A stretch of DNA of 64,000 nucleotides from Chitinophaga pinensis (lineage in GTDB: Bacteria; Bacteroidota; Bacteroidia; NS11-12g; UBA955): contig CAMDAF010000003.1 of the NCBI GenBank assembly GCA_945888525.1, forward strand, positions 62,001 through 126,000, in the 5' to 3' direction. The position numbers were made by a program, and so were the translations under genes. This document shows positions 56,385 to 59,754 of this stretch, piece after piece; within the stretch, counting starts at the first letter, position 1, and each line of letters starts with the position of its first letter. The notes below the pieces were generated by a model. The model was not told where the DNA came from, did no database searches, and saw only the letters and a program-made list of their open reading frames with translations.

Positions 56385-57452
56385 TTACAAATTCAACAAA
56401 TCCGCGAATTCCTTATTCAAATACAACTTTTCCCTTCCAGATGATTTCTCTAACAACAAGCCCATTTTCACTAGGTGGTTTAGGTAGGTATAAGCAGTTT
56501 GTCGATGGCAGCCCATCTTCTCACAAATCATCTTAGGTTTAATGTAAGGCTTATAAAATAGAACATCCAGAAGTTCATATGCAGGCAAAATATAATCGGT
56601 ATACTTCTCTAATTGGTCTTTGAATTTCTTGCGCAATTGAACATAAAGTTTAGTTTTCTCCAATAAAAGAACAACAGCTTCCTCAAGCTTTTGGATGATA
56701 AATACCATCCACTTTTCAAAACTTTGATTGATCATTACGTCTCTTAACAAGGAATTATAGGTCTCCTTTTCTTTGAACAAGATAAACGAAATAGGAATGC
56801 AATTATACAGTAAGCCGAGCTCTCTAAAAAATAGTTTAGTGAGGATTCTGGCAGAGTGTCCATTCATTTGTAAATAGGGCGCCAAGGCTCGAAATTGATA
56901 ATGTATCAAAGCCAAACTCTGCAAACTGCTTGTTTTCTTCAATTGCTTAAGGGCCTTATCTAAATCAAGCCTTAAATATTGAATCAAACTGGGGTTATTT
57001 GGGGTTGTATACAAACACAAATTTGTAAAATAACTTTGAATACGTACTTCCTTTTTTTCTCTAAACATTTCAGAATGTCTTTTTGAGAAATGCAAAAACT
57101 CAGGAGCCAAATTGTTTACACTCAGAGATTCAATCTCATCTTTCCATTCTAAAGATTTCAAAATTAGTATGGCATTTTTTTCATTTAGGCTATTCTCGGA
57201 TGAATATGCCTCCAATAAACGCAGCACAGAAATTGAAACACCTTCAAGGTCAAATGAATACTTGCTGTCTACCAATTCAATTAATTGAAAAAAATTAAGA
57301 ATGCCATTGTTTGATTGAGCATCCACATATCCGTTTAAATGATAAATTGATTTCCAACACGACTCTGAAATACCATGTAGCTCTGAAAGACTTAATATTT
57401 TTAATTCATTAAGTGGTTTTAACTGGTTATGCGGTAATTGACTGTTTATCAA
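56385..57452 (-). CDS. Fic-family pseudo-enzyme with C-terminal winged helix
   Basis: A 355-residue protein laid out like class II Fic proteins. The N-domain has the inhibitory motif SFDLEG (66-71), an exact (S/T)xxxE(G/N). The Fic core reads IHYQFRALAPYLQMNGHSAR, where the catalytic loop HPFxDGNGRxxR has become A191-PYLQM-NG-H-SA-R: the catalytic His is Ala, Asp/Glu is Gln, Gly is Met and the first Arg is His. AMPylation should be impossible. The C-terminal winged helix (MICEKMGCHRQTAYTYLNHL, then GLLLEKSSGREKLYL) suggests DNA binding. Start TTG 57452; TAA closes the frame 13 bases upstream. It is divergent from glnN. Confidence 0.8.
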   Translation of the reverse strand: MINSQLPHNQLKPLNELKILSLSELHGISESCWKSIYHLNGYVDAQSNNGILNFFQLIELVDSKYSFDLEGVSISVLRLLEAYSSENSLNEKNAILILKSLEWKDEIESLSVNNLAPEFLHFSKRHSEMFREKKEVRIQSYFTNLCLYTTPNNPSLIQYLRLDLDKALKQLKKTSSLQSLALIHYQFRALAPYLQMNGHSARILTKLFFRELGLLYNCIPISFILFKEKETYNSLLRDVMINQSFEKWMVFIIQKLEEAVVLLLEKTKLYVQLRKKFKDQLEKYTDYILPAYELLDVLFYKPYIKPKMICEKMGCHRQTAYTYLNHLVKMGLLLEKSSGREKLYLNKEFADLLNL

Positions 57453-57456
57453 TTTT

Positions 57457-57485
57457 ATGTCGAATTATCTTACAATTTTCGACAT
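57457..57485. promoter_or_regulatory. Inverted-repeat operator candidate
   Basis: ATGTCGAA (57457-57464) and TTCGACAT (57478-57485) form perfect 8-bp arms whose centres are 21 bp apart, two helical turns. It lies 5 bases upstream of the Fic-like gene's start, in the shared region with glnN. The spacing suits a dimeric winged-helix regulator. No -7 box is evident for the Fic-like gene itself. Confidence 0.5.
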
Positions 57486-57556: not shown

Positions 57557-57564
57557 TAATTTTG
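57557..57564 (+). promoter_or_regulatory. -7 element of glnN
   Basis: TAATTTTG fits TAnnTTTG; the leader to ATG 57583 would be about 14 bases. TCGAAT at 57547-57552 repeats the half-site sequence of the operator candidate upstream. Confidence 0.55.
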
Positions 57565-57582: not shown

Positions 57583-59754
57583 ATGTCTTCAACATCAAGC
57601 AAGAATTTAATTCAAGAAAAACCACCCCACAAACAAATGAAACAGATATCAGAGTACTTCGGAAAAAGTGTTTTCGGTCCAAAAGCAATGGCCGAATTCG
57701 TTAGCAAAGAAGCCATCAAGGCTGTAAATGAATCAAGAAATACAGGAAAGCAAATGGACCGTAAAATGGCAGACCAGATTGCAGAAGGTATGAAAAATTG
57801 GGCCATCGAAAAAGGTGCCACCCACTACACACACTGGTTCCAACCATTGCGTGGTTCTACTGCAGAAAAACACGATGCATTCTTCGATCCAACAGGAATA
57901 GATACAGGCATTGAAGTGTTTACAGGAAAATCATTGGTGCAACAAGAACCAGATGCATCAAGTTTTCCTAATGGTGGCATTAGAAATACATTTGAAGCTA
58001 GAGGTTATAGCGTTTGGGATCCTTCATCTCCTGCTTTTATTATGGAAAAAGCCAGCGGTAAAACCTTGTGTATTCCAACAATTTTTGTTGCCTACACTGG
58101 CGAAGCACTCGACTACAAAGCACCTTTGATAAAATCAACTAATTTCTTAACCAAAAACACAACTGCTGTTTGCCAATATTTTGACGCTAATGTTAAAAAC
58201 ACAAAAGTTTCCCTGGGTATCGAACAAGAATATTTCTTAGTTGATGAGGAACTATACCACCAAAGGCCTGATTTGGTTTTTGCTGGAAGAACTCTAGTTG
58301 GTAACATGCCTGCCAAAGGCCAACAATTAGAAGACCATTATTTTGGTAGCATTCCAGAGAGGGTCTACAACTATATGACCGACTTTGAAAAAGAAGCTTT
58401 AAAATTAGGCATACCTCTTAAGACTAGGCACAATGAAGTAGCGCCTGGTCAGTACGAATGTGCGCCTATGTTTGAAGAAGCAGATATAGCCATTGACCAC
58501 AACTCTTTGCTTATGGATGTTATGCAATCGGTTGCCAGCAGGCATAAATTAAAAGTTATTTGGCATGAGAAACCATTCAAAGGTGTTAATGGTTCTGGTA
58601 AACACAACAACTGGTCTCTTATTACCGACACAGGCGTTAACCTTCTTTCTCCAGGACATAGCCCCATTGATAACCTGCAATTTTTAACCTTCTTTATCAA
58701 TACCATTAAAGCGGTTCACGACCATGCTGATTTGTTAAGAGCCAGTATTGCAACTGCAGCCAACGACCATAGATTAGGGGCTAACGAAGCGCCTCCTGCT
58801 ATTATGTCCGTTTTTATTGGTAGTACGCTAAGCGAAGTGTTAAATCAATTCCAAGCAATTAAAACACCGGTTATAACCGGCAAAGTGAATGAAAAGACCA
58901 TCAGTGTGTACCGAATTCCTGAAATACTTTTAGACAACACCGACCGCAACCGTACGTCTCCATTTGCTTTCACAGGAAATAAGTTTGAGTTCAGAGCTGT
59001 TGGTTCAAGCGACCATTGTGCAAATGCTATTATTGTTTTAAACACCATCGTTGGCAACCAATTGGCCGAATTTAAAAAAGAAGTAGACGCTTTAATTAAA
59101 AAGAAAACCAATAAACTTCTTGCCATCGAACAAGTTTTAAAATCGTACGTTAAAGCCACGAAAAAAATCATTTTTGAAGGCAATGGCTATGGTGATGAAT
59201 GGGTAAAAGAGGCTACAAAAAGAGGTCTAAGCAACATCAAAACCACACCTTATGCATTGGATGCCTACAGCACCAAAGCAAGTAAAGATCTGTTTGTAAA
59301 AAACAACATCTTTACCATTAAAGAACTTGAAGCACGCACTGAAATTAAATTTGAAAACTACCTGTTAAAAATCCAAATTGAAGGCAGAATCTTAGGCGAA
59401 TTGGTTAAAAATTATGTTATTCCTTCTGCGGTTGAATACCAAAAGAAATTAATTGATACCATTGAAGGGCTTAACAGAATTGGACAAACCAAAGCAGAAA
59501 ACAAAGGCTTGTATACCTTGGCTAAAGAAATTTCTTACAACGTTAATGCGATTTGGGAAAACAACAACAAAATGGTTGATGAAAGAATCAAAGCCAATCG
59601 ATTAACGCATGCCGATAAAAAAGCAAAAGCTTATTGCGACAAAGTAAAACCTTATTTTGACAGCATCCGCGAAAGCGCAGACAAACTTGAAGAGCTAATC
59701 GACAACGATGCTTGGAAACTGCCTAAATACCGCGATTTGTTGTTCTTGAAATAA
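57583..59754 (+). CDS. glnN: Glutamine synthetase type III
   Basis: ATP-dependent ammonium assimilation enzyme of 723 residues, the large GSIII class. FGPKAMAEFVS and THYTHWFQPLRGSTAEKHDA are GSIII-specific. SLGIEQEYFLVD and EVAPGQYECAPMFEEADIA hold metal ligands; WHEKPFKGVNGSGKHNNWS is the ATP/glutamate region and SIATAANDHRLGANEAPPA follows. I place the start at ATG 57583, because a TTG at 57562 lies inside the -7 box. It is divergent from a Fic-like winged-helix gene that may regulate it, and ends at a strong terminator. Confidence 0.96.
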   Translation: MSSTSSKNLIQEKPPHKQMKQISEYFGKSVFGPKAMAEFVSKEAIKAVNESRNTGKQMDRKMADQIAEGMKNWAIEKGATHYTHWFQPLRGSTAEKHDAFFDPTGIDTGIEVFTGKSLVQQEPDASSFPNGGIRNTFEARGYSVWDPSSPAFIMEKASGKTLCIPTIFVAYTGEALDYKAPLIKSTNFLTKNTTAVCQYFDANVKNTKVSLGIEQEYFLVDEELYHQRPDLVFAGRTLVGNMPAKGQQLEDHYFGSIPERVYNYMTDFEKEALKLGIPLKTRHNEVAPGQYECAPMFEEADIAIDHNSLLMDVMQSVASRHKLKVIWHEKPFKGVNGSGKHNNWSLITDTGVNLLSPGHSPIDNLQFLTFFINTIKAVHDHADLLRASIATAANDHRLGANEAPPAIMSVFIGSTLSEVLNQFQAIKTPVITGKVNEKTISVYRIPEILLDNTDRNRTSPFAFTGNKFEFRAVGSSDHCANAIIVLNTIVGNQLAEFKKEVDALIKKKTNKLLAIEQVLKSYVKATKKIIFEGNGYGDEWVKEATKRGLSNIKTTPYALDAYSTKASKDLFVKNNIFTIKELEARTEIKFENYLLKIQIEGRILGELVKNYVIPSAVEYQKKLIDTIEGLNRIGQTKAENKGLYTLAKEISYNVNAIWENNNKMVDERIKANRLTHADKKAKAYCDKVKPYFDSIRESADKLEELIDNDAWKLPKYRDLLFLK

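Follow-up and report, generated by a model that had tools for sequence, protein, structure and literature searches.

In the present study, we found that the gene divergent from glnN in the window (the whole stretch of 64,000 nucleotides analysed here) encodes a SoFic-type Fic protein whose catalytic loop has been destroyed, and that this protein quite probably serves as a dedicated regulator for both its own gene and glnN, the latter being probably activated (Table 1). Autoregulation by a Fic-HTH protein is an already known mode of action; the new element would be a regulator that is catalytically dead, conserved throughout a genus and paired with glnN. In a limited search of the literature, we found neither a dead-Fic transcription factor nor a dead Fic-HTH protein linked to metabolism, and neither a regulator of glutamine synthetase in Bacteroidota nor a glnN regulator of this type.

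Table 1. Features of the fic-glnN locus, with positions in the window
Feature	Position	Strand	Remarks
Catalytically dead SoFic-type Fic protein with C-terminal winged helix	56385..57452	-	355 aa, TTG start
KYT-linker and winged helix	56388..56606	-	codons 283-355; recognition helix CHRQTAYTYL
Destroyed Fic loop APYLQMNGHSAR	56847..56882	-	codons 191-202
Inhibitory-helix motif (S-F-D-L-E), retained	57243..57257	-	codons 66-70
Putative operator, inverted repeat ATGTCGAA-N13-TTCGACAT	57457..57485	.	overlaps presumed fic promoter
Predicted glnN -7 box TAATTTTG	57557..57564	+	matches Bacteroidota TAnnTTTG consensus; 86 bp from operator centre
glnN, type III glutamine synthetase	57583..59754	+	likely ATG start 57583

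The first-pass annotation had described a Fic-like protein with a winged helix, and the searches bear this out. The open reading frame matched SoFic-like_C (PF21248) at 1.8e-15, the NCBIfam SoFic model at an E value of 7.8e-36 (123.8 bits), the PADLOC SoFic model at 2.3e-34 and, in the sequence search, the SoFic chains of PDB at about 1e-24. The two Pfam families that the annotation had named fared worse: PF02661 was marginal (E 0.087, below the cut-off), as expected because the Fic loop is destroyed, and PF13784 gave no match in the Pfam search. A single-protein scan of the genome contigs gave no match. It is the PF21248, NCBIfam and PDB matches that establish, from sequence, membership of the SoFic family by descent. 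The SoFic-like fold was confirmed by modelling: the predicted AlphaFold2 structure (16 window/locus sequences) had a pLDDT of 87.5 and a pTM of 0.88, and a Foldseek search with it ranked SoFic structures first (TM 0.78-0.84). Like SoFic (SO_4266; PDB 3eqx/3zcn/3zec), the protein consists of N-terminal helices with the inhibitory motif, a Fic core and a SoFic-like_C winged helix, and the recognition helix KRQTA is common to the two; unlike SoFic, it has a dead loop. SoFic (EcSofic) is an active, toxic AMPylase and an anti-phage system (PMC12249575). The present protein scores far under the curated NCBIfam cut-off of 550 bits and, with its dead loop, falls outside the active AMPylase toxins of that system.

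Alignment of the canonical H-P-F-x-D-G-N-G-R-x-x-R with A191-P-Y-L-Q195-M196-N197-G198-H199-S-A201-R202 of the window agrees with the earlier description of the loop, in which His (now Ala191), Asp/Glu, Gly and Arg were said to be altered. The His, the Asp, the Gly and the first Arg are gone, together with a further Gly, while NG and the last Arg (Arg202) stay; the pattern HxFx(D/E)GNGRxxR is absent, and AMPylation by this protein is not expected. The inhibitory motif is exact, as had been reported, with SFDLEG at residues 66-71 fitting [S/T]xxxE[G/N]. Glu/Asp70 and Arg202 are kept in all 11 members of the main group, more plausibly as a structural lock than as part of an inhibitory helix that senses ATP or an adenylylated partner, the role proposed earlier. 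Judged from the alignment, the ATP pocket has its phosphate-binding Gly (position 196) and first Arg (199) replaced by freely varying, non-conserved residues, and the other five of the 16 members (group 2, L041-L045) have also lost Arg202 and the flap, yet they retain both the operator and the pairing with glnN. The proposal is thus not upheld, and the nucleotide pocket in its old form is an unlikely sensor. The AlphaFold2 model of one group 2 member still had a TM of 0.77-0.79 to SoFic. The winged helix with its linker is the most conserved part of the protein across the genus and holds 17 of the 23 invariant columns of the alignment. R78 and E81 were considered as clade-specific residues and rejected, since they are also present in some intact RQTA-type SoFic proteins.

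Our survey covered 17 genomes of the genus, which consists of uncultured Bacteroidota, 108 genomes of the order and 395 sampled genomes of the phylum. A dead homologue was found in 16 of the 17 genus genomes; the assembly of the 17th (G011) lacks glnN too and is therefore uninformative on the pairing. The loop His is lost in all 16 homologues, the conservation that the first-pass annotation had asked about, and it is kept in all 29 best matches extracted from the phylum genomes. Of the 108 order genomes, only those of this genus have the dead form. In a tree with 34 intact relatives, which has long branches, the dead proteins form one side of a branch with support of 100/100; judged from this tree, the dead clade is monophyletic, with a single origin. 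Decay in one strain is excluded by such a clade common to 16 genomes. The dN/dS ratio was about 0.04-0.09 for the three closest species and 0.09 in the dead Fic region (one computable comparison), in both cases with dS near saturation, and the gene, its Fic region included, is by this measure under strong purifying selection. The loss of the catalytic loop, and in group 2 of the flap as well, could be expected of a decaying defence gene, that is, a pseudogene in progress, but the intact open reading frame in 16 species, the low dN/dS, the near-invariant winged helix and the conserved operator already refute this reading, to which we assign almost no probability.

Wherever glnN, the main gene of nitrogen assimilation, was assembled in the genus (16 genomes), the dead fic gene is divergent from it. 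An ABC-transporter neighbour is also syntenic in the 11 main-group genomes; group 2 has different neighbours otherwise, and there only the fic-glnN pair persists. In the closest outgroup (G022), glnN directly adjoins the ABC gene, without fic and without the operator. The position beside glnN, which the annotation had suggested following across Bacteroidota, is thus constant in these 16 genomes.

The fic-glnN intergenic region contains a conserved inverted repeat, (A/G)TGTCGAA-N13-TTCGACAT, at the presumed promoter of the fic gene in the 16 genomes. In the main group, no more than 5-7 bp separate this candidate operator from the start codon of fic. Eleven genomes match 12-14 of the 14 half-site positions; group 2 keeps one half-site, but the other has degenerated (8-13 of 14), which makes for a weaker predicted operator. 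In a sequence-model scan, it was the top or near-top site in almost every genus genome and was absent from 14 glnN loci of other genera without the fic gene. Because each genus genome has one strong site, those on contig C63 of the window's own genome (G000) excepted, the dead Fic protein does not appear to be a global nitrogen regulator. An operator-like site at G000 C8:32950 (13/14), before a lipoprotein/peptide-transporter gene, is not conserved in relatives and was attributed to chance, and weaker matches in G012 C54 and G000 C24 lie inside open reading frames.

In 15 of the 16 genomes, the operator centre and the predicted glnN -7 box are 84-87 bp apart, and in the remaining one the gap is shorter by one helical turn (75 bp); the boxes are consensus matches to TAnnTTTG and thus predicted promoter elements. 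The intervals that flank this segment, up to the fic start (5-26) and up to the glnN ATG (19-85), are variable, and the spacer is close to random in sequence, with an identity of 0.39 as against 0.34 after shuffling. Control of the glnN promoter would require just such a fixed, helix-phased spacing. The ATG is a likelier start of glnN than the TTG at 57562, because that TTG falls inside the -7 box. On the other side, the fic-side half-site TTTCGACA overlaps the would-be fic -7 element, and autorepression would be the simplest reading of this arrangement. The suggestion that the fold has been repurposed as a regulator beside glnN is well supported by the loop loss and pairing in 16 of 16 genomes, the conserved operator, its spacing and the conservation of the winged helix.

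In other Bacteroidota families, this repeat is found ahead of intact SoFic-type genes: among those whose recognition helix is xRQTAxxYL, 15 of 19 have it, against none of 15 with other recognition helices. It stands before lone SoFic genes without glnN. Because intact RQTA-type SoFic genes carry the repeat, sequence-specific DNA binding and autoregulation look ancestral, and in the glnN lineage AMPylation seems to have been discarded and the transcription-factor role kept. Three alphaproteobacterial SoFic genes (L188, L189 and L190; helix AKRQAA) have TGTCGAT-N13-ATCGACA upstream with the same spacing, and the operator thus extends across phyla. In another family, operators flank intact SoFic genes on both sides (L098:1419-1451 and 2620-2654; L100:1424-1460 and 2599-2633; L107:1426-1459 and 2618-2654), which would point to looping or to the regulation of an adjacent transcript. 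Several intact SoFic genes (L098, L100, L102, L103, L104 and L109) have a second, weaker operator upstream, 40 bp (about four helical turns) away from the main one. Upstream of the SoFic gene of G012 (L097; helix SRTTLTDYM) are TGTCCA/TGGACA inverted repeats, a possible variant operator.

CccR of Yersinia pseudotuberculosis is a proven Fic-HTH autorepressor, which binds an inverted repeat at its own promoter (PMC9755527). It shares with the present protein a Fic domain, a C-terminal HTH and such a repeat, which in our case is a prediction. However, the CccR operator, AGATAATCAT-N26-ATGATAATCT, differs in sequence and spacing, and CccR is catalytically active, secreted and without a metabolic link. 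CbFic2 of Coxiella burnetii (PDB 8cil) is a class II Fic whose C-terminal wHTH binds DNA (PMC10628234); unlike the present protein, it is an active (de)AMPylase on histone H3 with no specific operator known, and its structural similarity is lower (TM about 0.6). For SoFic itself, DNA binding was stated as not shown as of 2023 (PMC10628234); SoFic dimerises via helix alpha-1, and its C-terminal domain moves when ATP is bound (PMC12249575).

The most probable reading is that a SoFic-type AMPylase became a dedicated transcription factor. The dead protein would presumably dimerise via helix alpha-1, like SoFic and CccR, the two winged helices of the dimer would occupy the inverted repeat, and this binding would block the fic promoter. 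The bound protein would sit about 97 bp ahead of the glnN start, always on one face of the helix, and from there would control glnN, most likely by activating it. We regard binding of the operator by the protein as very likely and control of glnN as probable, and the effect on glnN is somewhat more likely to be activation than repression. As the SoFic architecture is kept, the protein could couple a signal in its body to the winged helices, and the dead Fic body would serve as a scaffold for dimerisation and signal coupling. The signal would presumably reflect nitrogen status, with GlnN itself or a metabolite as candidates. It is even conceivable, although we hold it as a tentative and rather doubtful idea, that the AMPylase has turned into a sensor of nitrogen status, in which the dead body reads GlnN or a metabolite in the old pocket, shifts the winged helices on the operator and so sets glnN expression.

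The protein might instead control its own gene alone, as in the AMPylase ancestors, with glnN as a passive neighbour. An operator that abuts the fic start and recurs before lone SoFic genes would fit, but the pairing persists in 16 of 16 genomes while other neighbours change, and the spacing to the glnN -7 box is held as the fic side varies; we therefore consider this quite unlikely. In Bacillus, feedback-inhibited, glutamine-loaded glutamine synthetase acts on GlnR and TnrA, small DNA-binding regulators that are encoded with, or control, glutamine synthetase; their MerR-type fold is unrelated to the dead Fic protein, and the analogy is only functional. This precedent of glutamine synthetase binding a regulator, the tight pairing and the selection still acting on the dead Fic domain would all agree with a dead Fic body that binds GlnN and regulates it post-translationally, DNA binding being secondary or a read-out. 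Against this, GlnN remains 84-98% identical, whereas the Fic body changes quickly and has 28-44% identity between the groups, and we regard the explanation as unlikely.

An antidote role, in which the dead homologue heterodimerises with an intact SoFic toxin or represses it, seems very unlikely. SoFic is a dimeric toxin (PMC12249575), and on contig C63 the operator recurs ahead of a SoFic-like open reading frame, but this contig is only 3 kb long and cut inside the gene, the SoFic of G012 has a different recognition helix, no intact RQTA-type SoFic was found in the other genus genomes at the thresholds used, and the partner gene is glnN, not SoFic. The C63 copies (L147:2805-2932) lie before an open reading frame that begins at 2934 and is cut by the contig end; this second SoFic-like frame is a possible target of cross-talk.

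With a dedicated regulator of fic and glnN, an immune toxin would have been domesticated into a transcription factor that serves central metabolism, and Bacteroidota would have a candidate regulator of their glutamine synthetase. The family offers an intermediate series, from active SoFic through dead forms with the lock kept to dead forms without flap and loop, along which the operator can be traced throughout. Models for defence annotation match this non-enzymatic regulator (PADLOC SoFic, 2.3e-34), and surveys may thus wrongly count it as an anti-phage system. If the nitrogen-status sensor is real, it would be a kind of nitrogen regulator not described before. Furthermore, a DNA operator is now predicted for SoFic proteins generally, which makes SoFic regulation testable.
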